64,000 nt of DNA from Auricularia sp. M13. Taxonomy: Eukaryota > Basidiomycota > Agaricomycetes > Auriculariales > Auriculariaceae. The position numbers and the translations under genes were made by a program. Below the pieces are notes generated by a model. That model was not told the origin of the DNA and did not search any database. It worked only from the letters and a program-made list of their open reading frames with translations. The stretch is taken from assembly GCA_037042915.1 (NCBI GenBank), contig CM073198.1, forward strand, positions 1,178,001 to 1,242,000, in the 5' to 3' direction. Positions 20,713-56,832 of this stretch are shown here, one piece after another (positions within the stretch are counted from its first letter, which is position 1; the number at the start of each line of letters is the position of its first letter).

Positions 20713-21263
20713 CTAATCGTCGAACTACAGGAGTGTGAGATTGACGGACAACCGAAGCGCAGCAAACACATACGCAGTCCGAACAGCCGCTCCCGTCGGA
20801 AAGGCAAACGGAGCCGACGTTGCGGACGGCAACTCTGCCGTTGACCCTGTCCACGCTGGCGTCTCCGCAACCGAGGATTTGACCAACTGCGTCGCGCACG
20901 TCGGACCAGAGCGCATCGACGTAGTCAACATACACGCAGCCTGCGACTCATGTCAGTCTGTCGCTCGTCCAAGCAATCAGAGGCCGGCGACGCACAATTG
21001 CCAGGAGAGCAGGTCGGGTTCCAGGCGGGGGAGATACCGCCGACGGTGCACGTACGGCTCCAATCAGGGGTCAGCGTCGACCAGTTGTCGAAAAGAGCCT
21101 GGCAGTCGCTGAGCGTCGCGTCGCTGGTCGTACCGCAAGTCGGGCTGTTGTCGTTTCCGGGACCGACAATTTGGCGGCGCAATACTGTAGAGTTGTTCGA
21201 AGGGAATGCGACGGCAGAGCTCAGAAGGAGTGCTGTCGCAGCAACGAACGTGAGAAAGTGCAT
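20713..21263 (-). CDS. Cysteine-rich small secreted protein, copy A
   Basis: Exons 20996-21263, 20774-20940 and 20713-20724 give 148 aa. A signal peptide ends near SSAVA (residue 19). An RR pair at 29-30 could be a Kex2-type site before QIVGPGNDN. About ten cysteines follow, in patterns CGTT, SRTC, NPTCSPGNCC, GCGD, VCLS and GCSDC, and the last exon codes only FDD-stop. The junctions are confirmed by copy B (43179-43733), which has the same three exon lengths (268, 167, 12). A TATA box lies 52 bp upstream. I do not recognise the family. The arrangement loosely recalls Ecp2/KP4-type secreted cysteine-rich folds, but I could not establish that. It abuts PEX1 tail to tail and starts the accessory module. 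Confidence 0.82.
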
Positions 21264-22667
21264 GGTAAGACTGACAGTGTTGGGGATGGGGTCTTGAGAG
21301 TGAACAGGCAGACCCTTTATATGATGCCTTCGGCTGACTGTTCGGCAGGACGTCTGAGCGCTCTCTAGAAAGCATTTCGTGTGCCATTACAGTGCACATC
21401 TGTGCCCCGCAGGTGAGTAAGGCTATTAATGTTCCGGCGCTACATATGCATGACAATCCGGAGCCGCGATGGGGTGTGAATCCGGCTCCACAGGACCAAC
21501 AAACCTAATTGTGCAGCGGCAGGACAAATAGCGTCTGAGCGTCCGCGACCATCGATGCAGCACAAGTCTGGCCCAGGTGGGCCCGTCACCCTGTCGAGGT
21601 AGATCGTCCACTGGAACTTGAGAAGTCGCAGACAAGCTTGTGTCACTCGTTCGCTACGCCACCTACTATGTTGGGGAACCTCCTGCCGTCGTAGGAAGTA
21701 TGGAATCAGGAATCTCATGATTCGAACCCTGGGAAGCATGCACCAGCATGCATCATATGTTATCCACAAGTCTGAGAAATCAGTAAGTGGTTGGCTCGAC
21801 AGTGAGCCACATGGATCTGATGTTAGCGCTTGCTGTCGTACCCACCACTTAGGAGTCAGCATCGGGTCAGCACCAGTCAGCTTTGGCGCCGATGGGCTTC
21901 ATGCGTGAGGTCATGCCTGGACTGAGTGGCAAAGTTATTTTTTTGCGTCATTGAGACTGTAAGTGCTTCTCTCGATATCAATTTTCCTCTGTAATTCCCA
22001 CGGGACCGTCTCGGCACAGGTGTCCCAATTGCGCAGTTGAGCCACCCCGTGCGAAATGCACAGGGCCAGACCCTATGAGCAAATGCATTTGATCGATCAG
22101 GATCTCAGGACAGTTCACCCCTGACATTGGCTTTCGTGATAGTTTCGTTTCCAGTAAATCTGAAAAGGTAGTTGTTGTAGTTGGGTAGTTGAGGTGTGAG
22201 CAGCACGAAGAAGACAAACAAGTGCGTCAGGAAGTCCAATCTCATGCGTCCGATGAGGGGCATTGACAGAGACGGCTTCAACTTCATCCCCTGTAAATTC
22301 TTCATGAAATTCGATATTCCATTATATATCACCAACGGCTCGAAGCTGTAAAAGAACAGGTGACTTCCGGCTGACTGTGACTTACCCGCCATTTTCAGAT
22401 TCCGCTTGTACACTGCTTGACCTTGAACGGTAACATTCGACCGTCATGCCGCGGCGCGCAACAAGAAGCGCGCCTGTAACTCATTTTCCTGGCACTGCAT
22501 GCCATCAGGTGCTCAACTCATGCACCGACGAGTTTCGAATTGCATTTCTGCGGCTATACTGTCTACTCCATGAATCGCTACAAACATGGATCGCGACAAA
22601 GACTTGGTCACTTGGCGTCTATCTTGATCCTCCTTGCTCCGGGCTCACACGGTGGTCTGCGCGTGCG
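21264..22667. other. Intergenic stretch in accessory module A
   Basis: It is the promoter side of secreted protein A and the 3' flank of the DUF6924-like gene. A lone tRNA-B-box-like string near 21730 (minus) has no matching cloverleaf. Frames here are short and lack signatures. Confidence 0.45.
21315..21321 (-). promoter_or_regulatory. TATA box of secreted protein A
   Basis: TATAAAG on the minus strand sits 52 bp before the ATG. Copy B has the same heptamer at nearly the same distance, so the core promoter came along with the duplication. Confidence 0.65.
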
Positions 22668-23247
22668 CTAGAAGGATCTCCAGACCCGGTCGTCGTCGAT
22701 CGAATAGATGTACTGGTTGTCTGTCAGCCTGAGAACTTCTGGACTAGCGCAAGCATGGGCGTACGGAGGACAGATCCTGGTTGCCTATCTGTAGGTTCAC
22801 GGCAGCTACGGGCACAGCGCGCGCGACGAAGCGCACCCCGAGGACACCGCTCGAACCTTTGCCGTCGGGCGAAGGCAGCTCGAACTCATCCAGCCGACGG
22901 TCCCTTCCCTCCTGTTTGACTTCGCCATGATCTTCGTTCTCGCTGTCTTCGTCATCGTCGGAAAGGGGTTTGTTAGCGACGACGAGCACCGTATTGTCCT
23001 CCAGCGTGCGCTCGTCCAAGATGACGATCGGGTCTCCGGTCATACCGTCTGGGATCTTAGACCAGTGGTGGTTTCGAATCTGGAGTGCCGTCATGCCGTG
23101 CGTTCTCTCGGGCGCGGGCGTCAAGGTGATGTGGCCCGGAGGCGGGAAGCCGTTGTTCCCACCGGTGTCGAAGTCGTGCTGGATACGCTGCATAATCCCC
23201 GTGGGGATCGGGCACGTTTGGTACAGCGCTACGCGGTGGAATACCAT
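22668..23247 (-). CDS. Small acidic protein, DUF6924-like, divergent partner of DNase A
   Basis: Exons 22772-23247 and 22668-22728 give 178 aa; the start is the ATG at 23247. The centre holds an acidic linker (DDDEDSENEDHGE). Around it runs the order PIVILDERTLEDNTVLVVA, VRFVARAVPVAAVNLQIGNQDL and a terminal IDDDRVWRSF. I associate this pattern with DUF6924 (a strand of hydrophobics, then a VNLxIGNxDx block and a D-G/R-V-F/W end). That assignment is from memory and uncertain. There is no signal peptide, so it is probably intracellular. It is head to head with the secreted DNase at 23543, 295 bp apart. The donor (GTCCTC) is weak, but it alone restores frame to the conserved C-terminus. A decayed homologue occupies the same position in module B. 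Confidence 0.6.
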
Positions 23248-23542
23248 GATGCGTCTGGTTGTTTGAGCATGCCGCACGTCGCTAGGTCTGCTTTTGACTG
23301 CTTCATGTCCCCTTGAGGTCATGCAGTGTCTGCTACGCGCTTCGCTGGCCGTACACATGTCAGCTTAATGATCAGCTCCAAGCGCCGTGGCGGGACAGCT
23401 CCACATCGTCTGGCCAAGGAGTCTCATGCAGAGTTCTTCCGAGCGCTCGTTCGGGCATTGGTGCCGCAAATGTGTAAACAGCAGTTTCTGCATAAAAGCG
23501 GGCGAGGTTTAGTGCGTGGTCACTCATCTCAGTATCGCAACC
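23248..23542. promoter_or_regulatory. Bidirectional promoter between DUF6924-like gene A and DNase A
   Basis: A 295-bp divergent spacer; module B has a 299-bp counterpart with visible stretches in common, including TGTGTAAAC/TGTGTAAACC and a CATAAAAGC TATA-like element. CATAAAAGC lies at 23491-23499, 44 bp before the DNase ATG. Shared control of the two genes is inferred. Confidence 0.6.
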
Positions 23543-24627
23543 ATGCTGACCGTCAAGTTGTGCATCGCATCGTTCTCGCTTCTTGCCGCAGTCGTGACGG
23601 CCCAGCCGGTTTTCACTCTCGACTGTAACACCTACCCCGATGTGTAGGCCTTGCGTTCGACACGCTTTCACTCGCTGATTATCATCAGGTGCGAAAACCA
23701 TTGCAACGCTGCGTTCTGCCACGGCTTCGACAATCCGAACGCATTCTTGCACTACGATCCAAACTCCAACAGCGACATGCCCAACCCCGGCACGCAAGTG
23801 ACTGCAGCGACCTACAGGCGCAACGCTATTGGCTGTGGCAGCGGAAACTATTGCTCCGGCACAGGCAATGACTGCGATGAGTTCCCCTACGCGAGCACGT
23901 AAGTTGACTGGTCTACTCGTCCTCCCGACCTCTCCACTTACCATTTTCACGCAGTTACGACGGAGGACTTGGCGTCAGTCCAATCCGCTATTCTCGGTTT
24001 TGAGACTCACCGTACCTACAGTGCATCGTGGCTCGCTACACGGGAACCGACCCGATCGCCCAGAGCGGGACTACCCGCTGCGCAAACCCCACGCAAAACA
24101 GTCAGCATGGCAATGCCATTGGGCAGTTCTACTCCAATGAAGGGCTGGCCGATGGCGCGCAATTCCGTAAGCACCTATACTGCTGTATTTTACCTCACCC
24201 TCATACTCTTTTTCTCGTTCAGAGGTTGCCTTTGACCCCAACAATGTCGACAACGCGCCGTTGTGCGCGGACCTCCGGGGCCCGCAGGGAACCAATGCAT
24301 GCCCCGATGAGTCCACCGGAGATTATCGTTTCCGTTCCACACCTCAAAGCGTCCGTGTGCACGGACTCTGACTGTGCCCACGGCCATTCTAATCATTTGC
24401 AACAGGACTTCTGCCCTTCGCGTGCTGCCCGCCGCCGCCGCTTCGATATTCCCGGCCTCCGCCTCCGCGAGAGCCCATCGCGTCCCGGAAACTCGTCGTT
24501 CCACAGCGTCAAAGACTCTGACGGCCACGAGGTCATTGTCATTCACGGCCCTCGCCCCGTACCCGGTACGAGGGTCTGGCGCATGACTCCAGACGGTAAA
24601 GGGGCGGTGAGCACCATTGTTGGGTGA
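23543..24627 (+). CDS. Secreted NucA/NucB-type deoxyribonuclease, copy A
   Basis: Exons 23543-23643, 23689-23898, 23955-23973, 24022-24166, 24223-24350 and 24406-24627 give 274 aa. A signal peptide ends near residue 20 (AVVTA). The family hallmark CDEFPYASTYDGG (residues 96-108, acidic pair D97/E98) is followed by CANPTQNSQHGNAIGQFY and EGLADGAQF, matching the DE-P-ASx / QxGxxxxxFY layout of bacterial NucA/NucB DNases. Cysteine pairs upstream (ENHCNAAFCHG, GCGSGNYCSGTGNDC) suggest an extra disulfide-stabilised N-terminal part. The Arg-rich C-terminal exon ends in WRMTPDG. Expected role: secreted, metal-dependent degradation of environmental DNA. Exon 3 is 19 nt and is conserved in copy B. The fourth donor uses GTCAGT and the last GTCCGT. 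Confidence 0.85.
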
Positions 24628-25225
24628 ACGCCTACGATTCACTTGAGACGGATGCCTTCCCGCTCATTAGTAACAACTGTCAACTTCATACTATGTCCCT
24701 CAAATTTAATCAAATAATGTTCGTGCACGATCTCGAAGTCTTACCACGGCAGAGTCTCGCCGATTAAGCCGCCTTTGGCTCAGTGAGTCTCCTCAGAGCC
24801 AACGTTCACTCACTCCCTTCATTGAGACTGTGTGTCGCCGTATGAATCACATGATTAAAGCCTCTCTTCGTGAGCGCACTTCACCGCAGTGGAAAATTTT
24901 GTCGTCGTGATAAGTCAGATTAGATACGAGTACAGAGCCAATGCAGAGGAGCTTCTTGGACCTGCCGCACGCAATAGGGTGACGTCCGACGCCTGGCCAT
25001 GCAACCATCATTCTTACGCGTCCTCTTGGCATTGCCGGCCGAGCAGAAATACGGCTAGATGCAGACTGGAGAGGGCATTCCGCAGGATCGGCGGTGCAAG
25101 ATCGGCCGTAAAGAGGCTAGCTGCGCAGTGCGAAGCAGTGCCATGCACAGCCGTATATATACCGCGCCGAGCCGCGTGTCTCACTTCGTTCTTGCATTCG
25201 CACTACCCGCAAATCACTCGCAATA
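24628..25225. other. Intergenic stretch
   Basis: DNase A 3' flank and promoter of the first DUF7330 gene. A TATA-like TATATAT lies near 25152, about 70 bp before the ATG. No other gene is seen. Confidence 0.45.
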
Positions 25226-25958
25226 ATGCTCACGAAAGCTGAAGAGTCGGACGCTCCTCCAGCATACAGCTCTTCCTCGATGGCCGCGCCAGCTGGAGCC
25301 GCTGTCCCTGAGGTCGCGCGCTGCAACTTCGTCAGCATCTCGCGCACGCATAATCGCATCGACGGCACCTATGTCGTAGACCCATTCATGCGCGTTCCAA
25401 CGGAGTTTCTCGCGCCCGAGGAGGGCGGCGCGCGTCCGAACCTCCTCCTCGCGAGTGCGCACGGTGTCATCGACGCGGACGTTTGGGTCTTCCCCGTGCC
25501 CGACGGCGACGTGAAGTCAGAGTCCAAGACGAGACTCTGCTTTGAGAACAAGCACGGCAAGACTGAAGTTCGGCTGGTACGCAGCCTGCGTTTGACTTGG
25601 CGGGCGTTTTTCCAACTTACTCCCGCGAAGCATGCGCTAGGAGATCTTCCTTGCCTTGTCGATGCGCACTCTACGCATGGGTCGGTTCACCTCACGCTAC
25701 CGCATGATTTTGTCGGCGTCATCACGACCAGCACGAAGCACGGAAAGGTTGATTTGCCTCGTGAGCTGCTGTCTCTTGGCGAGGCGAATGGAGTAGCCAA
25801 GTACTTCAAAGGCAGCCAACTTGGTGAGTGTTCGTCAATTCCGCACTCTAAGATTAACTTGCGTGATAGGCTCGGGAACCTGGGAGGGCTCTCAGATCGA
25901 CATAAAGACGACTCACGGCAAGATAAAGGTTACGGTCTCCGGGGCGCCGAAAGCTTAG
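25226..25958 (+). CDS. DUF7330-type protein, copy 1
   Basis: Exons 25226-25576, 25631-25823 and 25870-25958 give 210 aa. It follows the order I know for fungal DUF7330: a PPAY-bearing disordered start, ISRTHNRIDGTYVVDP, RPNLLLASAHGVIDADVWV, VDAHSTHGSVHLTLP, a KYFKG block, then IDIKTTHGKIKVTV. These repeated beta-strand motifs (xGxVxVxL) suggest a beta-solenoid or beta-sandwich. Function is unknown. No signal peptide or TM segment. Three other copies lie at 46.4-47.9, 48.0-48.9 and 55.2-56.1 kb, all with the same two-intron plan. It is the only copy in module A. Confidence 0.82.
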
Positions 25959-26600
25959 CAGATCCCCGTGCCCGAGAACGCGGCTTGTACCCGTAGGCTT
26001 GTTCATTACTGTGCTCGCACCATAAAGTGTACGACTAGATGAAGAAATCATGGTACCCGATCAACAGTTTAGAGTTGACACCTTCTCGGGAGGGGTCAAT
26101 TACCTTGACCATGTTCTTGAGGGCCATGACTCAATATATGGCGAAACGGACTCCTTGCTCGTTTTATTATATCGCACTCTACATCAACACTGGAAAGCAG
26201 GTATCTTCTGGCCGAGGCCGGCTTATAAAGACCGATGTAACGTGATGGCGCTGACATGAATGAAGTTCTTCTGGAGTTCAGTTTTAGCTCTATTACAGCG
26301 AACACATACATAAATGCGCGAATGAAATGCCTATTCAACTCACGGATATAGAAGAACATAAGGAAACCATACGCGCCCTGAATACCTATGGGAATCCTGT
26401 AGGCTCTAAATGGTTTGTCAGCCATGATAATCAGCGGTGGGTGGGACCATTTTAATGGGCTGACAAAGCGCATACGGATTACGCAAGCAGAATGGCTTCA
26501 GGCATCCGATAGTACGCGCAACGCAGCGGCCATGGACCCCGGTAAAGCTATAAATGTCAATAAACACGCCATGTATCTTCTCAGCAAGCCTCTTTCGCAG
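25959..26600. other. Intergenic stretch
   Basis: Between DUF7330 copy 1 and the SDR gene. It contains only short frames with no signatures; the last part is the SDR promoter. Confidence 0.45.
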
Positions 26601-30366: not shown

Positions 30367-30523
30367 TAATTGCGCGTAAAGTAGGTAGCGTCTCCGCCTC
30401 TATGAATTAAGCTCTATGAATGGGCGTCTATGAATACCGAAAGGAGAGTGTATGGTATGTGCGCATGTGCGTGTGCGTGTGGATGCGTGGAGTGGCAGAA
30501 AGAGCGCGCACGCTTTCCGAGTA

Positions 30524-32079
30524 TTACTGGACATCGACGCCCGAGTCGCTAATCGCGCCATCGGGGAACACAGGGCGCGCGGCGGCGAGGCCTTTTGCGT
30601 TCTTGAAGAACACGACGTTGCCCTCGTCCTCAATGAACTGGCACTCGCGATAGACGCGGTAGAGCTCGCTCCATCCGCCCGGTGCGCCAATGAGCTTGAT
30701 GCCGGCGCTCTCGAGCCGGCGGCGCAGCGCGTCGGTCGCTTCCCAGGCATGGTAGTGCGGGATCTTGGAGCTGACGTGGTGCAGGACGTGCGTTTCCGAG
30801 ATGCCGTGAGTCGCGCACGCGCCGAGCCAGCCCCAGAACTTGCCAGCACCTCCGAGGAGCGAGCGATCGAACGTGGTGAGCGCGCCGCGCGCGAAGGTGA
30901 ACATGGGCGGGCGGTAGTGCGGCAGCAGTGGATCCGTGTGCTGCAGGAACGTGATGAGCACGATCCAGTGGTTGACCCAGAGGTACGGCAGGCCGTAGAT
31001 GCGCAGCATCTCGCCGAATGAGCGCGTCGCGCTCCAGTAGACGAGCGCGCCGAGCCACAGGAGGACACCGATGTCGGACACGACGACCTGCCAGAACTGG
31101 TGCGGCGCGAACAGTGGCGGACGCGGGTTGAAGTGGTTCGTGCCGCTCGGGTAGGGCTGCCCGGCGGCGTTGCCGAGCATGTGCGCAGGCCAGCCGATCG
31201 TCTGCGCTGCGCGTAAGTGTCTCGAGATGTGACAGTAAACTGCAGTGCTTACGACGTAGGAAGCGGCGCCGAGGGCGGCACCGATGGGCGAGTCGCCCAG
31301 AGCTTCATAGAGCTCCTTCTTGACTTTTTCCGTCACGCTGGACCCTAACAGGTCCTCGCCTGTCGGATCGAGCGGCGGCAGGCCCAGCTCGGAACGCGTC
31401 CTAGGCACGTACGCCTGGTCCAGGTAGACATGACCGGTCGACGCATGGTGCTTCGAGTGTGTAATACGCCAGGAGAAGTACGGGACGCCGAGGCTGCAGC
31501 TAATCTTTAGCACCAGTCCAGGCGATCGAGCGAAGACGTGCCTGGAGTGCAGAACCCAGCCAACGGAGTTATTGAGCCACTTATACTCAGAGAAGGCCTG
31601 GTGTCCGCACTCGTGCGCGATAATCCACACGCCCGTCGCGACGAGGCCCGCCGCGAAGCTGTACGCGCCCCAAATCCCGAGCCAGCCGACGGTATACAGC
31701 GCTGGGTGTGGCAGCACAATGTGTTCGGGCGTCAACCAGTCCGATGCGCGGGCAGCCAGCCAGTGGAACCCGTACAGCAGCGCCGCGTCCCATACGCTGT
31801 GCTTTGCCCATCAGCCACAGCGCGGCGGCGCCAGCGTCCTGCTACTCACACGTACGCCCCCGATCGCAGTGCTGAGCGTTTTTGGCAGTGCGGCCTGTCC
31901 ACCCCAACGCGTGAGCACCGACGAATAGATATGAAAAAAAGGCGGGCGACGCACGGTATGGCCGACAAAAGGTCCTTCACGGTGAGCCCGGGCACGACGA
32001 ACTCGACCTGCTCGACTTTTTCTCTGGCCTCGCCGTCGTCGCTGAACACGGTCACGGGTTGGGCGTCGTCGGGCGCCAT
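30524..32079 (-). CDS. Delta12 fatty acid desaturase, copy 1
   Basis: Exons 31955-32079, 31850-31894, 31542-31796, 31253-31493 and 30524-31201 give 447 aa. The three histidine boxes are HECGH (118-122), HSKHH (154-158) and HVLHH (360-364), with the spacing of membrane oleate Delta12 desaturases. Four TM spans are expected in the ER membrane. The conserved phrases SEYKWLNNSVGWVLHS and FTFARGALTTFDRS support the family. Known reaction: oleoyl to linoleoyl lipid using cytochrome b5. Intron 3 has a GC donor (GCACGT) where copy 2 has GTGCGT. It shares all five exon lengths with copy 2 at 34500-36082, so the pair is a tandem duplication about 2.4 kb apart. Confidence 0.92.
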
Positions 32080-33757
32080 GGGAGCGGATAAGAGAGCGGA
32101 GTGAAAGGCGGTGCCACGCGCGAACGGAATGCCCAGCCCTTTTGTATCGTTACGCTGATCGAAATTTTCGTCGGGTGGCGGCTATTTGATATGGTTTTTG
32201 CTCCCGTTTTGCTTGAGTTTAGACTCCATCAGTGGCGGCGCCAACCGAGCACCGCTCTCCAGGGGAGAAATAATATCACACAGGGACCTGCTTGGATTAG
32301 TACTAGCAAGGCCTTGACGATACCGATACTTACGGATCGTCTGCAACGCAAATTTGCGGCTCCCACCTTTGTAAATCATTAGGATGCCATCTTCCGGTGC
32401 GATCACTGTTGACCACTATCAGGGCTTGCAGTTGACCCTCGTTTACGACATAAAAGCTCTGAAGGCGCATGGCCCAAGCCTTCTGGAGCAAGGAACTAGC
32501 TTCAGTCTCACCATGGACATCGACTCCGCAATGATTCACTTGCCATCGAAGCTGCAGGCAAATAGACTGTCTTGACTAGTAGGTCATGTTCGGCGTGTGA
32601 GATGAGCGTTACCAATTAGTCGATCAGGTGAGAAGAGGGGGCTTACCGGCTATAACAATGCGCAAGCGCGTGTGGTACGGCGCCGGCTGAGCGCTGAGGA
32701 ATCCCGCCATTCGATGTGTATCATAGGAACACCAAGCGGCTAAGCTCTACCGCCGACGCGTCATACTCAGTTGAACACAGACTCGAATGAGATTCGTCGC
32801 TGCAGCCAATGCCGGGGATGAGACCGTCTCGAAAGCAGCATGCGCACGGATCGTTACAGTTTCAGGTCAGCACGTTCGAGTCCTGGTTGCCATTGCGCGA
32901 AGATAGAATCGCGCTGGAAATGCAGAAAACGATGGCCATGGGCGACGCTCATTCAGCGAGCCGTCGGACTGAAGTAGTCGAGGTGCGAGTTCCGGTCAGT
33001 AGTACGTGGGACTGGCAGAATGGGAGCAGCGACACAGTCCGCAGAATATCCTTTTCTGTGACACGAGAGACAGGTTAAAAGCTTTGAAAACGTTGGAGCC
33101 AATGCATAAAACCTTTTCAGAACCTATTCAAAGCCTTCTGTGCCACGGAAAAGGACATTCTGCAGGCTGTGCGAGTCTGGCATGCCTGAGCCCCCCGCCA
33201 TCGGAGTGAGACAAACGAACGAGCAGCCACTAAGCACCAAAGCGGAGCTGCCCACCGACAGACTCAATTGCAAGCTCCAAGTTGACAAGACGAGGCCATT
33301 CAGACGTTGCGCGCCGCACGTCACGTCACGTCCAGACCCGCGTGCTGGGCGATAACGAAGTAGACCGCCAGCCAGCCAGCCAGCCAGAGTTGCGACGAAA
33401 GGACTGCAGCATCGAGGAGGTTGGGGGGCAAGTTACGAATTCTGTTGACGCATCGTTAATCAGCGCACATCCGGGGGCAAATATCGGCCCGACGTGGGAA
33501 CTTCTGTCAGTCAGGTTCGACGCCACGGATCTACGGCGCTGTAACTTGCCTGGCAGAGCGCTGGGGCACTCTCACTCGCATGAGCTGAAGTCTCAATGAA
33601 TATTACCGGGGAGTGGTACATATCATGCGCACGGGCTACATACGTGGCCACCTGGTAGTCCCCATGTCAGCTATCACATTACCTCCTCGCCTACTGCATC
33701 GCAGACTGCGGTTCAGGCCGCGACCCTCGTCAGATCTCGCGTCTTCCCAGGGAGAGC
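32080..33757. other. Spacer between the two desaturase genes, left part
   Basis: It begins with the promoter of desaturase 1 and has no recognisable gene. Contains a short (GCCA)4-5 microsatellite near 33370. Open frames (e.g. 32384-32575) are short and unsupported. Confidence 0.45.
32156..32171. promoter_or_regulatory. Conserved desaturase promoter element, copy 1
   Basis: TGATCGAAATTTTCGT lies 77 bp upstream of the desaturase 1 ATG. The same 16 bp occur 85 bp upstream of desaturase 2 (36167-36182), next to an A/T-rich TATA-like string (ATACAAAAG here, TATAAAAG there). The core CGAAATTTTCG is palindromic, as expected for a dimeric factor site. A role in lipid or temperature control is only a guess. 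Confidence 0.6.
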
Positions 33758-34209: not shown

Positions 34210-34499
34210 TGTACTCAGAAACGCGCCCGCCCGATCGAACATATTCGCATGGTCTTGTGCACTTTTGACCTTCATCCTCGCAAGATTATTCAACGCACGC
34301 CGCGGCAGCAACAGATTATCTATCCTGTGAAAGCAGGGAGCGTCTTCGCTCAGCCTCATTGAGCTCTATCAATTCGTTCGTCTAAGCACACACAAAAGGC
34401 TAAGCAAGGGGGCGGTAGGGGTAAGAGAACGGTGGGAAGCGGTATAAACAGCGACTGAACACCAACGCCCAAGAGTCAGGTCGGCACGCATGCAGTCTT

Positions 34500-36082
34500 C
34501 TACTGCACATCAACACCGGAGTCACTAATCGTGCCGTCAGGGAACACAGGCCTAGCAGCCGCGAGCCCCTTGGCGTTCTTGAAGAACACAACGGAGCCCT
34601 CGTCCTCGATGAACTTGCACTCGCGGTACACGCGGTACAGCTCGCTCCATCCACCGGGCGCACCGATCAGCTTAATCCCCGCGCTCTCCAGGCGGCGGCG
34701 CAGCGCATAGGTCGCCTCCCATGCGTGATAGTGCGGGATCTTCGAGCTCACATGGTGCAGCACATGCGTTTCCGAGATACCATGGGTCGCGCCCGCGCCA
34801 ATCCACCCCCAGAACTTGCCCGCGCCGCCCAGGAGCGAGCGGTCGAACGTCGTGAGCGCGCCGCGCGCGAAGGTGAATACCGGCGGGCGGTAGTGCGGCA
34901 GCAGCGGGTCGGTGTGTTGAAGGAAGGTGATGAGCACGAGCCAGTGGTTCACCCAGAGGTACGGCAGGCCGTACACCCGGAACATCTCGCCGAACGAGCG
35001 CGTGAAGGACCAGTATGCCAGCGCGCCGAGCCAGAGCAGCACGCCGACGTCCGACACGACGATCTGCCAGAACTGGTGGTCCGCGAAGAGCGGCGGGCGC
35101 GGGTTGAAGTGGTTCGTGCCCTTCGGGTACGGTTGGCCGGACGAGTTGAGCGTCAGGTGCGCGGGCCAGCCGATGAGCTGCAGAGCGTCAGGATGTCTGC
35201 GTTAGAACTTGAACCAAGTTCGGCGCTTACAACGTAGGACGCGGCGCCGAGCGCGGCACCGATGGGCGAGTCGCCGAGCGCCTCCCACAGCTCCTGCTTA
35301 ACCTTTTCCGTCACGCTGGACCCAAGCAGGTCCTCGCCGGCCGGGTCGAGCGGCGGGAGGCCGAGCTCAGAACGCGTCTTGGGCACCCAGACCTGGTCCT
35401 GGTACAGATGGCCCGTGGAAGCGTGATGCTTCGAGTGCGTGATGCGCCACGAGTGGTAAGGAACGCCCAGCCTGCGTAGCAACTAACCGTTAGCATGGGA
35501 ATGGGAAGACCAGCGCAGAGATAGGGGCGCTTGGACGCACGCGGAATGCAGGACCCAGCCGACCGAGTTGTTGAGCCACTTGTACTCGGAGAACGCCTGG
35601 TGGCCGCACTCGTGCGCGATGACCCACACGCCGGTCGCGACGAGGCCCGCAAAGAAGCTGTACGCGGCCCAGATCGCCAGCCAGCCGGCGGTGTAGAGCG
35701 CCGGGTGCGGCAGGGCGACGTGCTCAGGCGTCAGCCATTCAGACGCGCGCGCGGCGACCCAGTGGATGCCGTAGAGCAGCGCAAAGTCCCACACGCTGCG
35801 TGGCGTCAGCGATTGCGCGAGAATCAATCAGACGGTTGGGTGGTGCCACGCACATATACGACGCTGACCGGATCGCCGAGCGTTTTTGGCAGTGCGGCCT
35901 GTGAGCGGCAGGGCGTCAGCAACGAAAGGCCGAAAGAAAGGAACGTGTGGCACGCACGGGATAGCCGACAAGAGGTCCTTGACGGTGAGCCCGGGCACGA
36001 CAAACTCGACCTGGTCGACTTTTTCTCTGACCTCGCCGCCGTCGTTGAAGACGGCCGCCGGCCGTGCGTCGTCGAAGCCCAT
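34500..36082 (-). CDS. Delta12 fatty acid desaturase, copy 2
   Basis: Exons 35958-36082, 35854-35898, 35541-35795, 35231-35471 and 34500-35177 give 447 aa. The exon lengths (125, 45, 255, 241, 678) are identical to those of copy 1. All three histidine boxes (HECGH, HSKHH, HVLHH) are intact, so it should be an active ER Delta12 desaturase. All its introns have GT donors. Differences from copy 1 cluster in the first 60 residues and the loop after intron 4 (LTLNSSGQPYPK versus MLGNAAGQPYPS). The promoter has a good TATAAAAG (minus strand, 36155-36162). Functional divergence (for instance growth-phase or temperature isoforms) is possible but not shown. Confidence 0.92.
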
Positions 36083-37297
36083 GGGTGCGCGGAAACGAAA
36101 GGGAGCGGGGTATGGGGAGCGGAGTCGGGGCTCGCGTTGCCGCTACGCCCAGCCCTTTTATACTGATGATCGAAATTTTCGTTGGGGTAACTCGGCCGAA
36201 GCCGGTTGGCGCGACGATTGGCTCCAGACTGCCCGCGCCTATTATCCACAAAGGGTGCACCTGATATCCGCTGGCAGTGGCACGCTCGCTTTCGCGGGAT
36301 GTATTATCAGACGCGGCCTCCAGTACTTAGAACGCCCGCTATAGCCTTAGATTCTCGCTGTGAAGCTGTCTCCGGACGCAAACACACTGCATGCAGCCGC
36401 GGGTGACGTCGGACGATGATGCTGGTCCGCGGTAAGGCCAAGAGCCCGCGCGTCAGTGCTGAGCGCATCAACAGGGGGAGAGTCGGGAATGAACGTCGGA
36501 GGCCGCGGTTCAGCAGCCCTGGGACCCGTGAATCCGAGATGAAGCATGCAGTCAGGGCCCATATTCAGATAGGATCCAATGCGGGGAGCCGGTCCGAGAA
36601 AGCTCCAAATGTAACCAGTCTGGAAGAACCGCTGAGTGTATGCCGCCAGGAGCCCATGTGCCATTGGATCCCGAAGCAAAAGGTGAAGCACTGGCAGCAG
36701 CAGGTAAGCTTCTAGTCCCCAAGCCACCGTCAGTCCAAGTGCCATAGCGATTCACAGTAGCCATGGTGAAGCAGACTAAGAGCTGTAGACAGCTGCTAGA
36801 CTATGCCAGGGCGCGAGGCTCGAGTCAGGCGCGCTCCGGGTCCTATCCTCTGGCTACAGCTGCCATGATGAGCGCGCTCGTCGACGAGATCGATGAGCAG
36901 GCCGCCGGCGCTGCTCGTATGGCAGCTGAGGGATCCAGCTATTGCGTGGCGAAGACGACGATGTGAGGGGAAGAGGGAGGGATGCGGAATTGGCCGCGCG
37001 CGTGCACGGGCGGTGGTAAACATCCGCGGCACGTGACGAGCACGCGACGATCTGTATATGCACCTCTCGCGGAGCCCGACATTATTATACACGTGAGTTG
37101 AGAATGGAATAGGAAACAAATGAATCGCACTGCGAGTACCAAAAACAAAATTGAGGACGACAAAGTTGAAAAAGCAATAACAAAAACCAATTCGAGAAAG
37201 CCACGACACATCTAGTACTGTAGATACTGAAGATGGAGATCAATCACTTCCTGCCAAACGCGATATCCTGCACGTTGCTTCAAAGCACCATCAGTCT
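36083..37297. other. Intergenic stretch between desaturase 2 and the peroxidase
   Basis: Contains the desaturase 2 promoter (TATAAAAG at 36155-36162; shared 16-bp element at 36167-36182). A minus-strand 132-aa frame at 36347-36745 starts with ATG and is hydrophobic at first, but has no support as a gene. The right end is peroxidase 3' flank. Confidence 0.4.
36167..36182. promoter_or_regulatory. Conserved desaturase promoter element, copy 2
   Basis: Same 16 bp as at 32156-32171 (TGATCGAAATTTTCGT), 85 bp before the desaturase 2 ATG and directly upstream of its TATA box. Confidence 0.6.
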
Positions 37298-40291: not shown

Positions 40292-40819
40292 CGTGAGGTC
40301 AAATGTTGTCGTCGATTGATTAGATGTGCTAGTTGGCTCTCAACTTGCGAACTTCTCGGCTAGCGACAGCATGGGCGTACCGCGAACAGGTCCTGGTTGC
40401 CTACCTGTAGGTTCACGGCAGCGACGGCCACAGCGCGTCTGAAGATGCGCACGCCGAAGACGCCACTCGAATCTTTGTCGTCGTACGATGGCAATTCGGA
40501 TTCGTCCAACCGACGGTCCTTCCCCGCTTGGCTTCGCATTGATTTTCCTCCTGGTTACCTTCGTTATGGTCGAGAGGCTTGTTAGTGACTACGGCACCGA
40601 GTTGTTCTGGATTGGATCTCCGTCCTGCCATCTGGGATATTGGACCAGTGGTGGTTGCGAATCCGGAGTGCCGTTATGCCGTCCGTACTCTCAGATGCGG
40701 GCGCCAAGGTGATGTGGGCCGGAGGCGGAAAGCCGTTGTCGCCTCCGGTGTCGCAGTCATGCTGGACTCGCGGACGGGATTGGGCATGCTTGGAGCGGTG
40801 CTGCGTGATGAAATACCAT
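40292..40819 (-). pseudogene. Decayed DUF6924-like gene, copy B
   Basis: Nucleotide similarity to the gene at 22668-23247 runs over the whole coding length, beginning with ATGGTATTTCA at 40819. Recognisable pieces include CDTGGDNGFPPPAHITL, RIRNHHWSNIPDG, a TNKPLD block and AAVNLQVGNQDL. The frame is broken in several places, so no full product can be made. It keeps the head-to-head position relative to DNase B (41119), 299 bp apart. Confidence 0.75.
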
Positions 40820-41118
40820 GATGCGTGGTGTTTGTCGAGTATGATGCACGGCTAGGGCTGCTTTTGACTGTTTCATGTGCCCTTGAGGTCATGCTGTGAC
40901 TACTGCCAGATGTTCTGGCGCTTCACACGGTCGACTTAACAGTCAGCTCCAAACGCTGTGCGAGGACAGCACCACATCCAACGTCCAATTGCAATAAATT
41001 CCCTGGTACTGTCCCTGAGCGCTCGTTCGGCAGTCGGTACCGCGAATGTGTAAACCACCGTTCTGCATAAAAGCAGTTAGGATTTGGTGCGTGGACTACT
41101 TGTCTCAGTATCGCAGTC
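40820..41118. promoter_or_regulatory. Divergent promoter region of DNase B
   Basis: Counterpart of 23248-23542. The TATA-like CATAAAAGC is at 41066-41074, 45 bp before the DNase B ATG. Preservation of this spacer although the minus-strand gene is decayed suggests it still serves the DNase. Confidence 0.55.
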
Positions 41119-42209
41119 ATGCTGACCGTCAAGTTGTGCATCGCATCGTTCTCGCTTCTTGCCGCAGTCGTGACGGCCCAACCGCCGATTTTCACTCTCA
41201 ACTGTACCACCTATCCCGACGTGTAAGTTTGAAGTCGACACGCTCACACTCGCTGATTATCATCAGGTGCGACAACCATTGCAACGCTGCGTTCTGTCAC
41301 GGCTTCGACAATACGAAAGCATTCCTGCACTACGATCCAAATTCCAACACCGACAAGCCCAACCCTAACACCCAAGTGACTGCAGCGACCTATAGACGCA
41401 ACGCTATTGGCTGTGGCAACGCGAACTATTGCTCCGGCACAGGCAATGATTGCGATGAGTTCCCTTACGCGAGCACGTAAGACTACTCTACTGGTTCGCC
41501 TAACCTCTGTATTAATCACCCTCCTCGCAGATACGACGGAGGGCTAGGTGTCAGTGCCATTGAATTTTCCCGGCGTTGAGACTCACTGTCACTTGCAGTG
41601 CGTCGCAGCCAGATACACGGGAACCGACTCAATTGCCCAGAGCGGGACGACCCGCTGCGCAAACCCCACGCAGAACAGTCAGCATGGCAATGCCATTGGA
41701 CAGTTCTACTCCAATGAAGGGCTGGCCGACGGCGCGCAATTCCGTGAGTACCCCAAGCTATACTCTGGTATCCCACCTCACCGCCTTACTCGTTGTCTCA
41801 TTCAGAGGTCGGTTTTGACGCGGACAATATCGACGACGCGCCGTTGTGCGCAGCACTCCGAGGCACCGACGGGACTGATGCATGTCCCGACGAGGACAGC
41901 GGAGACTATCGTTTCCGTTCCACGCCTCAGAGCGTACGCTTTCGTAACTCTGACCATGTCCTCTGGTGTTCTGATCATGGGCTATAGGATTTTTGCCCTT
42001 CGCGTGCTACCCGCCGCCGATACCTGGATATCCCCGGTCTCCGGCTCCGCGACAGCCCCTCGCGTCCCGGAAACTCGTCGTTCCACACCGTCACAGACGC
42101 TGACGGTAAAGAGGTCATTCTCATTCATGGAACTCGTCCTGTACCTGGTACGAAGGTCTGGCGCATGACTCCAGACGGTGTTGGGGCAGTGAGCACCGTA
42201 GTTGGGTGA
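41119..42209 (+). CDS. Secreted NucA/NucB-type deoxyribonuclease, copy B
   Basis: Exons 41119-41222, 41267-41476, 41531-41549, 41599-41743, 41806-41933 and 41988-42209 give 275 aa. The gene plan is that of copy A, one codon longer in exon 1. Signal peptide, CDEFPYASTYDGG, the QHGNAIGQFY block and the Arg-rich end are all present, so the enzyme should be active and secreted. The first about 60 coding bases are nearly identical to copy A, while later exons differ more, which hints at local gene conversion or constraint on the signal peptide. Donors here (GTCAGT, GTACGC) are slightly better than those of copy A. Confidence 0.85.
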
Positions 42210-43178
42210 CAGGCGACGGCCCTCTCGTGACGGCCACATTCCCACTCATTAGCAACAAGATTCCAACCTGAAGTCAATACTATGTCCTTCGAACTGTAAA
42301 TGCAATAAACTTGCTTCTCTAAATTTCGAAGTCTTGGGCGAGCACGCTGGAAATGTGTACTCGACTCTGTGGCTTGCCTCAGAGTTGATCTTCATTGACG
42401 ACGTGAAGGGTGAGGGGCATTCCCTTCGATGACTGGGACCGTAATTTCTGCCATCTGGCAATCCAACATAGCATCCTGGAGACTCGCCGACAGTCACGGA
42501 CTCGTCCCATCCTCTGACTTCGGCTCCTTCGTCGTCCGTCGCAACCAGATCGCCTAGCATATCGGCACAAAGTAGATATCTGAAGCAGTTCGAATTCCCT
42601 TCTCACGCTGACACGCTCGCCTCACTTGCCTAGTTCGACAAACGCATTCCCAGACGACTCACGTCTAAGGAAACGGATGACGGAAAATGTTTAGGGGAGC
42701 TATCCTTAGATCCTGGATAATTGAATGAATTTTTTCACAGGGCCTGCGAATACAAATTCTGCACAGGGTGGCTAAGCTACGTAACCAGGAGACCTGTACT
42801 GCGATGCGGTCCCGAGGTTCACACAGGAAACATAGCGTTGATAATTGAAGGACTGACATCTATATGACGCAAAGCATACTGTAATGTTATTCACCCAGGC
42901 ATGAGCTCACGCATGAAGCCAAGCTGATCCAGAGGCTGGTCGATGCTAACATGGTGCCGAGTAGTCGATTCGTGGGATCCTCGATCCTCTCTGCATACCT
43001 AACATCAAGAACCACACTGACGTATGGGGTAAAGTGTGCTACCATACAAAACACTTCCTCAATAGTTCCTGGAGAGCGCTGAGACGTCCTGCCGAACATT
43101 CTGCGGCCGAACGAGCTGTGATATAAAGGCCTGGCCATTGCCTCGGAAGGCACCATCCGCGATACTGTTAGTCCCAGC
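42210..43178. other. Intergenic stretch in module B
   Basis: DNase B 3' flank and promoter of secreted protein B. No gene was found. Confidence 0.45.
43122..43128 (+). promoter_or_regulatory. TATA box of secreted protein B
   Basis: TATAAAG, 51 bp before the ATG, matching the spacing in copy A. Confidence 0.65.
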
Positions 43179-43733
43179 ATGCGCCTTCTCACAGTCATTT
43201 CCACAGCAGCACTCCTTCTGAGCACTGCTGTGGCATTTCCGTCGGGCAACTCTACAGTGTCGCGCCGCCAGGTAGTCGGGCCCGGAAACGACAACAACCC
43301 AACGTGCGGCACGACCGGCGACGCGACGCTCAGCGACTGCGAATCGCTATTCGACAACTGGTCGACGCTGACCCCGGATTGGAGCCGAACGTGCACCGTC
43401 GGGGGTATCGAGCGGGCTTACAACCCGACCTGCTCTCCCGGCAATTGTGCGTTGCCCGCCTCTGACCGCCTGGAGGGGTGAGAATGCTGAAATGAATTCC
43501 AGGCTGCGTGTATGTCGATTACATCCATGCTCTCTGGTCCGACGTGCGCGACGCGGTTGGGCAAATTCTGGGTTGCGGCGATGCGGACGTCAACAAGGTC
43601 AACGGCAGAGTCGCCGTCCGCGACATCGGCGCCGTATGCCTGTCCGATGGGAGCGGCTGTTCGGACTGCGTATGTATCTTCCACATTCCGCATCGGTAGT
43701 GCCGGTCTCACATTCCCGCAGTTTGATGACTAG
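43179..43733 (+). CDS. Cysteine-rich small secreted protein, copy B
   Basis: Exons 43179-43446, 43503-43669 and 43722-43733 give 148 aa, with the same exon lengths as copy A (20713-21263). Signal peptide (STAVA end), RR pair before QVVGPGNDN, and the cysteine motifs CGTT, SRTC, PTCSPGNC, GCGD, VCLS, GCSDC and C-terminal FDD are all conserved. The last intron donor follows GCSDC directly. Unknown family. Conservation of both copies, including the tiny last exon, argues that both are expressed. Here it lies downstream of DNase B in the same direction, whereas in module A it is upstream and inverted. Confidence 0.83.
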
Positions 43734-47998: not shown

Positions 47999-48920
47999 CT
48001 AAGAGCTGAACCAGCTGGTCCAACCCGATTTCTTCAGTTTCGCAGCGTCCCGCTCTTCCGCGCAAGTGAACTTGATTCTGCCGTGCGTGGCCTTCACGGT
48101 GATGGTCGTGCCGTGCCAACCGTCCGCACCTGAAATCGCAAGAAAACAAATGTAAGTTGCTAACTTATGCACAGAAACGAGAAGATCCTCACCAACAAGA
48201 CCCAAATCGCCCATGAAGTACTTGCCCTCGCCCTTCGCGTCGCTCAAAATCGTGAGCTGCGGCGGGACGACGGTCGAGCCGTACGTCGTGCTCGTGCTGA
48301 CAGCACCGACGAAGCCGCGCGGGAGCATGATGTTGACCCTGCCGTATCCCGCGTGCACCTCGACCTCACACGGGCGGTTGCCAAGCGAGTGCTGCCAGTG
48401 AATAACGCCAACATCAGCATCTAGGCAGCCGAGGCAAGAAATAAGGCATGGAACGCACCAGCCGTACGTCGACACTGCCATATTCCGAATCGAACACCAA
48501 ACGCGTCTTCTCCTCCTGCCCCTCCGAGCCCTTCCTATCCGGAGCGGGAGAGGAATCGACGACCCAGACATCAGCATCGACCGCAGCATAGCAGCTCGCG
48601 AGGCGGAGATTCGGGCGCGGCGCCGCAGGGTCTGCGCCGTCCGGGAGGGGCGCCAGCAGCGACTCGGGCACGGCGAGCGCGGGGTCGATGAGGTACGCGC
48701 CCTTGACGCGGTTGTGCGTGCGCGCGATGTCCAGCAGGTTGCTCCGCGCGATACCCGGCGGAGGCGGTGTGCCGGGACTGCTGGGTGTTGCGGCGCTGGT
48801 GCTGGACGTCACAGTGGATGGCCCAGCGGTGGAGGACTGGACAGCGGTGAAGGCGGCGGCGGATGCGCCGATGTAGGGCGGCGGCGCATCTTCTGCTGCG
48901 AGTTGAGACTTCGAGACCAT
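47999..48920 (-). CDS. DUF7330-type protein, copy 3
   Basis: Exons 48459-48920, 48193-48391 and 47999-48129 give 263 aa. I start at MVSKSQLAAEDAPPPY (ATG at 48920); a longer frame upstream lacks support. A Ser/Thr/Ala-rich disordered N-terminus with a PPPY motif precedes the domain: SNLLDIARTHNRVKGAYLID, RPNLRLASCYAAVDADVWV, RLVFDSEYGSVDVRL, HAGYGRVNIMLPRGFVG, KYFMGDLG, TVKATHGRIKFT. PPxY motifs can recruit WW-domain ubiquitin ligases (inference). Function of the domain is unknown. It is the closest relative of the interrupted copy 2 lying directly downstream. Confidence 0.85.
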
Positions 48921-55227: not shown

Positions 55228-56088
55228 CTAGGACACGATGCACTCGCTGGGGACCTCATCTCCGGCCAACGTGACTCTAATCTTCCCCACGGGCGCCACA
55301 ATTTCAATCGTCGAACCCTGCCAGTCGTTCTCACCTGCAAATCGAAATGGGGGGAAGGGAATAGTGAGCAAAGTTTGCTCCTCAATGCAGCATTACTGAC
55401 CAAGTCGCGTCAGGTCTCCTTTGAAGTACTTTCCCTCGCCCTCCACCTCGCTCAGAGTCGCGAACGTCACTGGCATCATTGCCGGCCCGCACGACGTGGT
55501 CGTCTTCACGACGCCCACAAAGTCGCGCGGGAGGGTGAGTGTGATGTTGCGCCCCGAACGCGCCTCGATCAGGCAACGACTCGTTCCCGTATGATGCTGT
55601 AGAGCAAGCATCCTTAGTTCACGACTATCGCACGTGGACTCACGCCCGCATACTGTACGTACAATGCGAATCTTGAGATGCGCATCCCTCGATATGAAGA
55701 CGAGGCGCACGGTTTCGCCGGACGGCGCATTCACCGGCAGCACCCAGACATCGGCCTCGACGCTCTGGTTGCTCGCCAGCCGCAGATTAGGACGGGCGCC
55801 ATCCAGCTGCAGCTCGTCGGGCAGCGGCGCGAGCAGCGTATCGGGAACGCTGACGGACGGGTCGACGACATACTCGCCCCTGATGCCCTCCTTCGGGCGC
55901 GAAATGTTCAGAAGGTTGCAGCGCGGGATATCGGGCGGTGCTCGCGGCGGCGGCGAATCGGGCTCGGCAGCAGTTTGCTCTTTGCCAGGCTTGCCGATGT
56001 TGTCGCCGTTGTTGCCCGGGCCTGTACCGCGGTATGGCGGCGGGTTCTCGTCGCCGCGGTTGGGATGCGTGGACGTACTGCTCGTCAT
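55228..56088 (-). CDS. DUF7330-type protein, copy 4
   Basis: Exons 55663-56088, 55401-55596 and 55228-55334 give 242 aa. The disordered N-terminus carries PPPY. The domain runs RCNLLNISRPKEGIRGEYVV, RPNLRLASNQSVEADVWVL, RLVFISRDAHLKIRI, LIEARSGRNITLTLP, KYFKGDL and IEIVAPVGKIRVTLAG. Both intron positions and phases (0 and 1) match copies 1 and 3, so all four derive from one ancestral gene. It is the most diverged copy. Function is unknown. Confidence 0.83.
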
Positions 56089-56832
56089 GTCGCGGCGTCG
56101 ATGGAAGAGCTAGAGGCCGTCGGACTTGCAGTGCGGGAACGCCTCAGTTCGGCTGCTAACATGCTGTCGAACGACTGAGACCGAGTCGGCGTCAAGCTCT
56201 TGGGCTCACAGTGTCATGATTGAATGGTCTCCTTGTTCTCTCACCTCGATGGCTGTAATGCTTGCGCTTCACGAACCAGGATTTAGACGAGTTCAAACAC
56301 AACCGCATTGAAAGGGTATCACGCGGCCAAATGTAGTTATCAGTGAAGGCTATTAGAGATGCAACATATGAGACAGGCATAATATAAGGTGGGGTGCTCA
56401 GTTCCATCCCGTCAATTGGCCCAGGCTGCGATACATGAGTATCTCACCCACCTCATGAGTCATGAGCAGCGTGCGCAAGATACAAAAGACCTTGAGATCG
56501 AGGGCTAGCGGATCCATAGAATGACCCGTTGACGGTGCAAAATGACCGAGAAAAGAGGGCGAGCAGGTCGCCGATAATCTGACCAAACGTCTGCGCGGAG
56601 GGGTGCCGTAGTTGCGGCGCTGTCAGTGAATCCGGCTCTTCCACAAACCTAACGGACCATCGCTGTGCGTTGTACTCCTATCATCCTGTCATTTATTTCC
56701 TTCAATTCCTGAGTCTCTGACCATGCACGCTGTATACATAGAATCACCTAAACTAAAAATTTCCGTTCCGTTGACACTGTTTGTTTGATGCCGCGCGCAG
56801 CTCCACTCCGACCGCCTCTCCCACAAACATCC
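56089..56832. other. Intergenic stretch with a possible relic
   Basis: On the minus strand two adjacent frames (56453-56644 and 56398-56586) read as fragments with DPLALDLKVFCILRTLLM and HEVGEILMYRSLGQLTGWN, which look coding-like but belong to no family I know. The right end is the TPR gene promoter. Confidence 0.35.

Follow-up and report, generated by a model that had tools for sequence, protein, structure and literature searches.

The question raised by this locus is whether two adjacent genes of the fungus Auricularia sp. M13, one for a DNase and the other for a small acidic protein, form a nuclease-and-protector pair. They lie in a stretch of 64,000 nucleotides, here called the window, which covers positions 1178001–1242000 of contig 6 (C6) in a genome of 52.1 Mb, 14 contigs, and spliced genes. 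Results on linkage refer to this one genome, in which further loci lie on contigs 5 and 11 (C5 and C11). The two genes belong to the NucA/NucB and DUF6924 families and are linked at three loci with one difference in orientation, and a nuclease-and-protector pair is plausible in this fungus. The specific reading that we favor, a secreted NucA/NucB DNase with an intracellular DUF6924 inhibitor, is offered tentatively, as something short of an even chance. The pair consists of the following features (aa, amino acids):

22668–23247, minus strand: DUF6924 partner gene, exons 22765–23247 and 22668–22712, intron 22713–22764, 175 aa, 27.5 bits against PF21962.
23248–23542, no strand: divergent intergenic region, 295 bp, 72% identical to its counterpart in the second copy, which is within the range of the introns.
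23543–24627, plus strand: DNase copy 1, six exons, 274 aa, N-terminus resembling a signal peptide as judged by eye, PF14040 domain at residues 71–160, C-terminal tail.

The head-to-head arrangement of a DNase gene and an acidic small gene at 22668–24627, first described in a sequence-only reading of the window, is confirmed by the gene models, as is the ATG-to-ATG distance of 295 bp (small-gene ATG at 23247 on the minus strand, DNase from 23543 on the plus strand). The exons of the DNase gene are 23543–23643, 23689–23898, 23955–23973, 24022–24166, 24223–24350, and 24406–24627. Its assignment to the NucA/NucB family was correct: both DNases of the window pass the curated cut-off of PF14040 (DNase_NucA_NucB, 23.8 bits), with 54.0 bits (E = 2.5e-14) for copy 1 and 53.8 bits for copy 2. 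A CDEFP or CDEYP motif is invariant across four aligned fungal DNase sequences and is present in two of the four bacterial PF14040 loci inspected, the remaining two having no usable frame. NucB uses an adjacent Asp-Glu pair, according to PMC5758888, and the active-site pair given there for B. licheniformis NucB (D93-E94) appears to be kept in the fungal DNases, as judged by motif and not by structure; by count, it corresponds to D97-E98 of copy 1. No sequence match for the DNase was found in the PDB that could place equivalents of the remaining active-site residues (N117 and H53), and a profile of four DNase sequences gave one chance-level match there (E = 1.4). PADLOC gave no match for the DNase or the partner, and the viral contigs contained three weak relatives of the DNase and no relative of the partner. 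Beyond PF14040, the C6 and C11 DNases share a C-terminal tail with GPRPVxGxxxW followed by DGxGxxSTxV (24406–24627 in copy 1).

The small protein had been given as 178 aa, a length that we replace with 175 aa, guided by the homologue on C11. The longer model had an intron leaving LTDNQ before YIYSIDDDRVWRSF, and at the same place the C11 homologue is split by a canonical GTGAGT...TAG intron and reads NQDLSS-YIATIDSDMVWRTF; the corrected window intron, 22713–22764, is 52 nt long and reads GTACGC...CAG. This correction was drawn from homology prior to rescoring. Against DUF6924 (PF21962; gathering score and curated cut-off of 24.4 bits), the 178-aa model scored 18.6 bits (E = 0.0025, below the cut-off) and the 175-aa model 27.5 bits (E = 4.1e-6, above it, profile positions 60–129). 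The rise in score speaks for the corrected intron and for membership of the family alike, so that the likeness to DUF6924 suggested earlier holds in a hidden Markov model search once the splicing is corrected. The Pfam match covers the C-terminal half of DUF6924, and the N-terminal strand and helix agree with DUF6924 in a predicted structure (pLDDT of 66.1, a model built on bacterial rows).

The partner carries an acidic insert and, by eye, no signal peptide; its isoelectric point (pI) is 4.76, as calculated for the 178-aa model. It is under constraint between C6 and C11, with nonsynonymous divergence (dN) of 0.34 and synonymous divergence (dS) of about 1.0 by NG86, the maximum-likelihood dS of 11 showing saturation. 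The suggested kinship with ComJ/Nin did not survive: DUF6924 is the sole Pfam match listed for the window partner in hmmscan at E up to 10, and PF11033 (ComJ/Nin) has no match in this genome at E up to 10, with the B. subtilis control detected. A sequence search of solved structures with the partner gave chance-level matches only (best E = 0.25), as did tblastn of the window partner against plasmids (Rhizobium matches, E of 6 to 8).

The same arrangement had been noted to recur at 40.3–42.2 kb. It is present there, and the relevant features are as follows:

22689–24664, no strand: duplicated block with its counterpart at 40305–42246, repeat families D2, D4, D6, D7, D8, D10, D11, D13, and D14.
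40300–40819, minus strand, lower end approximate: partner copy 2, broken (pseudogene).
41119–42209, plus strand: DNase copy 2, six exons, 275 aa, open.

The two blocks are linked by ungapped repeat families with 73–94% identity, and an independent recurrence inside the window is rejected in favor of a single duplication, in which partner copy 2 has lost its reading frame to gaps, frame changes, and stops. Because it is a segmental duplicate, the 40-kb copy is not independent evidence for the pair. DNase copy 2 has the same six exons as copy 1, and its frame is open and constrained (dN 0.077 and dS 0.362 against copy 1, NG86). The intergenic regions of the two copies are 72% identical and their five introns 63–84% identical, so there is no sign of special conservation of the putative promoter. 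Inverted-repeat arms at 20768–21317 and 43125–43675, with 80–85% identity and about 22 kb apart, enclose both DNase copies.

Protein searches of the genome with each protein of the pair found a third pair, on C11:

C11, stretch L024, about 6682 to 5608, minus strand: DNase gene, upstream of the partner.
C11, stretch L024, 4698 to about 4147, minus strand: partner gene, about 0.9 kb from the DNase gene, in tandem with it.

Identity between C11 and the window is 57% over the aligned piece of the partner and 31–52% in the tblastn pieces of the DNase. The C11 partner piece scores 21.2 bits against DUF6924 (E = 3.7e-4), below the cut-off. When the open reading frames (ORFs) of at least 60 aa in the 9.9-kb stretch around the pair were compared with the window, only those over the DNase and the partner gave matches with E no higher than 0.001.

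On C5, two PF14040 genes lie in tandem (matching frames of 51.3 and 55.4 bits), and a 531-aa open frame lies head to head with the first of them. About 1.15 kb separate the end of this frame from the start of the DNase gene, and the true gap may be smaller, the first exon being uncertain. The same ORF comparison with the window gave a match for the DNase alone in the C5 stretch. It is quite unlikely, in our estimate, that the C5 partner is unrelated to DUF6924, in which case the genome-wide pattern would come from C6 and C11 alone. Such a view draws on the Pfam score of 19.6 bits, below the cut-off of 24.4, on the hhalign results (19%, E = 0.0012 against bacterial DUF6924; 2% against the C6/C11 pair), on the absence of a tblastn link to the window partner, and on an E of 0.022 with a profile built from bacterial DUF6924 only. 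Against it, no other of 24736 Pfam models matches this frame as well as DUF6924 (E = 0.0012, next model 1.5), with an alignment spanning positions 13–115 of 129 in the DUF6924 profile; among 1241 fungal ORFs searched with the bacterial profile, the frame comes second, after a gene on contig 1 (C1); and a truncated relic of the same gene faces the second C5 DNase (E = 5.4e-5 over 47 residues), the duplicated block being evident also at the DNA level. With the same bacterial profile, the C11 partner (rank 3, E = 1.1) and the window partner (rank 6, E = 4.5) are at chance level. Units 2 and 3 of the C5 frame look by eye like further domain repeats, an impression without support from the bacterial profile. 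The C1 gene is solitary:

C1, stretch L026, 4178–4543: DUF6924-like gene with the N-terminal DUF6924 half (VVRADFSDDAAW), 22.8 bits, below the cut-off.

No DNase gene was found within the 8.5 kb read around it; thus, not every DUF6924-like gene of the genome is paired.

In total, five DNase genes were found at three loci (two on C5, two on C6, and one on C11), and all five adjoin a DUF6924-like gene (the first on C5, copy 1 on C6, and that on C11) or its relic (the second on C5 and copy 2 on C6). Of the partners at the three loci, only the window protein passes the Pfam cut-off, and the C5 partner, which scores below it, is argued to be a relative of the family and not a member. The two families are stably linked in this genome, as seen at every DNase gene found, and the link is stronger than the sequence-only reading knew, through loci other than the 40-kb one that it cited. 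It extends beyond the window to two further loci; the head-to-head orientation does not, C11 being in tandem. Linkage recurs and orientation does not. By our own arithmetic, for a genome of 52 Mb that contains four DUF6924-like loci, the chance that one lies within 3 kb of a given DNase locus is about 5 in 10,000.

The pairs probably descend from one ancestral pair, so it is fair to claim that the genes stayed close through two deep splits, their orientation differing once. One alternative is inherited linkage only, in which one ancestral pair was copied to three loci and has yet to be separated, with no functional tie. The C6 copies are one duplication and the C5 copies another, extra partner copies decay, and both genes order the loci alike (C6 and C11 closer, C5 further), as expected for a unit copied whole. 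We nevertheless consider this alternative unlikely: divergence between loci is far (DNase identity roughly 31–52%; partner 57% between C6 and C11 and 27% between C6 and C5), nothing else in the examined flanks matches the window, and proximity was kept even though orientation differs.

The genome searches differed in reach. The PF14040 profile detected only both C5 genes and the second copy on C6, with C6 copy 1 and the C11 gene coming from the protein searches. The PF21962 profile had a single match, a weak one on C1 (E = 0.0077, below the cut-off), and missed all DNase-linked partners. Since profile searches missed known members, either family may have additional, more diverged members. With the C11 partner piece as query, both C6 copies and a single chance-level match came up, and C5 did not; a C5 DNase fragment recovered both C5 genes, but neither the C6 and C11 genes nor any other DNase; and a C1 fragment recovered nothing related beyond itself in the genome (best other match, E = 0.38). 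Nine weak matches about 8.8 kb apart on contig 14 (about 7.8 to 78.3 kb, E = 0.07–0.08) are regarded as chance hits within a tandem array, probably of ribosomal DNA.

Bacterial members of DUF6924 were first found with a probe sequence on actinobacterial plasmids, and six of them were confirmed (98.9–159.5 bits against PF21962). A profile of these six gave 266 encoding stretches in a prokaryote collection, of which 80 were analyzed; by record title they come from Actinomycetota, Planctomycetota, Verrucomicrobia, Acidobacteria, Bacteroidetes, Chloroflexi, Cyanobacteria, and others. The DUF6924 ORF was located in 78 of the 80 loci (L042 and L044 were dropped for broken frames), and a simple ORF picker gave 73 upstream and 76 downstream neighbors of at least 100 aa, which were scanned against Pfam at E up to 0.001. 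Among the matches listed, the commonest neighbor families occur 3 times in 73 upstream and 2 times in 76 downstream; integrase cores account for two of the 73 upstream neighbors. The predicted fold of DUF6924 resembles the anticodon-binding domain of glycyl-tRNA synthetase, and the lack of nuclease-inhibitor folds in the fold search is no evidence against such folds.

A further alternative is that the two genes serve a shared task or regulatory program, such as use of external DNA or lysis of the fruiting body, and that the partner binds nucleotides, nucleic acid, or another cytosolic protein and is not an inhibitor. We regard this as somewhat unlikely. All 46 bacterial DUF6924 domains scored, drawn from the 80 loci, are acidic (pI 4.05–5.06), which is unusual for a nucleic-acid binder, and a shared intergenic region is not constant, given the tandem order on C11 and the gap on C5.

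In several Streptomyces (L076, L090, L093, L094, L097, L099, L102, L110, and L031), DUF6924 forms the C-terminus of proteins of 614–656 aa. The longer DUF6924 proteins (ten, and three more on plasmids) have no second domain over the cut-off. Below it are B_lectin in two Streptomyces proteins (L031 and L099), one of which also has RHS (E = 0.21), and SMI1_KNR4 (E = 0.039) in one planctomycete protein. A literature search on the name DUF6924 found no paper in the searched library, and we know of no DUF6924 protein described as a protector against a NucA/NucB nuclease in bacteria.

For comparison with known systems, we take the Tox-ComI domain to be the same as PF14040. In B. subtilis, Nin (ComJ), encoded beside NucA (ComI), inhibits NucA and NucB, as stated in PMC5758888 (mixed lysates) and PMC3482391. 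The fungal pair resembles this system in that a PF14040 DNase gene adjoins a small partner gene, and differs in that the partner is DUF6924 and lacks PF11033 (the Nin family), the genes are intron-split and divergent or tandem, and inhibition is putative. PMC3482391 lists Tox-ComI in fungi, including Ascomycota and Basidiomycota, and its Tox-ComI row gives Imm-ComJ and Imm-SUKH as immunity proteins, likewise a nuclease beside a presumed protector; that row contains no DUF6924, and the paper predates the family name. Anabaena NucA/NuiA is also a nuclease with a dedicated protein inhibitor; according to PMC5758888, Anabaena NucA has no significant sequence similarity to NucB, and NuiA has none to Nin. 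Bacterial DUF6924 is like the window partner in its nearly identical order of predicted secondary structure, the window partner scoring over the family cut-off. It differs in that its members are not tied to PF14040, and the window partner, as judged by eye, has no evident RTDFSDD-type N-terminal motif and carries about 35 inserted residues of acidic character. Among the literature matches listed (titles and abstract starts), no fungal NucA/NucB-inhibitor pair was found.

Taken together, several results support the inhibitor reading: every one of the five DNase genes has a DUF6924-like gene or relic next to it, the partner's best Pfam match is DUF6924 at each of the three loci, linkage was kept despite a change of orientation, the partner is under constraint and is acidic like its bacterial relatives, and NucA/Nin of B. 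subtilis offers a precedent by analogy (PMC5758888 and PMC3482391). According to this reading, the DNase would be a secreted, metal-dependent NucA/NucB enzyme and the partner a cytosolic acidic DUF6924 protein, both locations being suggested by the N-termini as judged by eye. The partner would bind and silence the DNase inside the producing cell, and nuclear and mitochondrial DNA may thereby be guarded against mis-sorted or re-entering enzyme.

Other results weigh against the inhibitor reading. In both duplications, on C6 and C5, the extra partner decayed; the extra DNase is open on C6, and on C5 its matched PF14040 exon is open, which implies that the DNase can do without a partner of its own for each copy. 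An enzyme that is secreted would encounter an inhibitor in the cytosol only through mis-sorting or uptake, and the DNase domain, too, is acidic (pI 4.36). In the assembly, frame changes interrupt both genes on C11, through decay or assembly error. In hhalign, the C6/C11 partner pair matches bacterial DUF6924 with a probability of 22% (E = 0.001), and the closest match in the fold comparison is an RNA-binding anticodon domain and not a known nuclease inhibitor. No recurring toxin or nuclease family was seen among the bacterial neighbors (the best 25 of 82 and 25 of 75 families), a scope in which single cases and neighbors with no Pfam match may be missed, and PF14040 is present anywhere in the genome in only 7 of the 47 DUF6924-bearing bacterial genomes tested; thus, a tie to NucA/NucB does not look family-wide.

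Overall, the families and the linkage described in the sequence-only reading stand, and the independent 40-kb copy, the conserved orientation, and the ComJ/Nin kinship fall away. A broader proposal is possible, though the balance of chances is against it: that fungi of this kind carry a two-gene nuclease-protector unit, copied to several loci, and that DUF6924, an acidic domain with a predicted anticodon-binding-like fold, is a dedicated inhibitor of secreted NucA/NucB DNases, which would make the pair a eukaryotic counterpart of bacterial nuclease-immunity pairs and give DUF6924 its first function.

Elsewhere in the window, DUF7330 (PF24016) open frames occur at 25121–25996, 48002–48808, and 55396–56109, three within 31 kb and thus a local gene family, one of which adjoins the DNase pair. 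A tandem duplication, 30508–32086 and 34484–36089, with the copies 4 kb apart, lies over a fatty-acid-desaturase-like frame; the first copy has a PF00487 match on the minus strand.

If the inhibitor reading is true, DUF6924 would gain a function and a nuclease-protector gene pair would be known in a fungus, and two small proteins would allow a direct test of how secreted fungal nucleases spare their maker. Should the partner prove not to be an inhibitor, its repeated linkage to the DNase would still give a concrete lead on the role of DUF6924.
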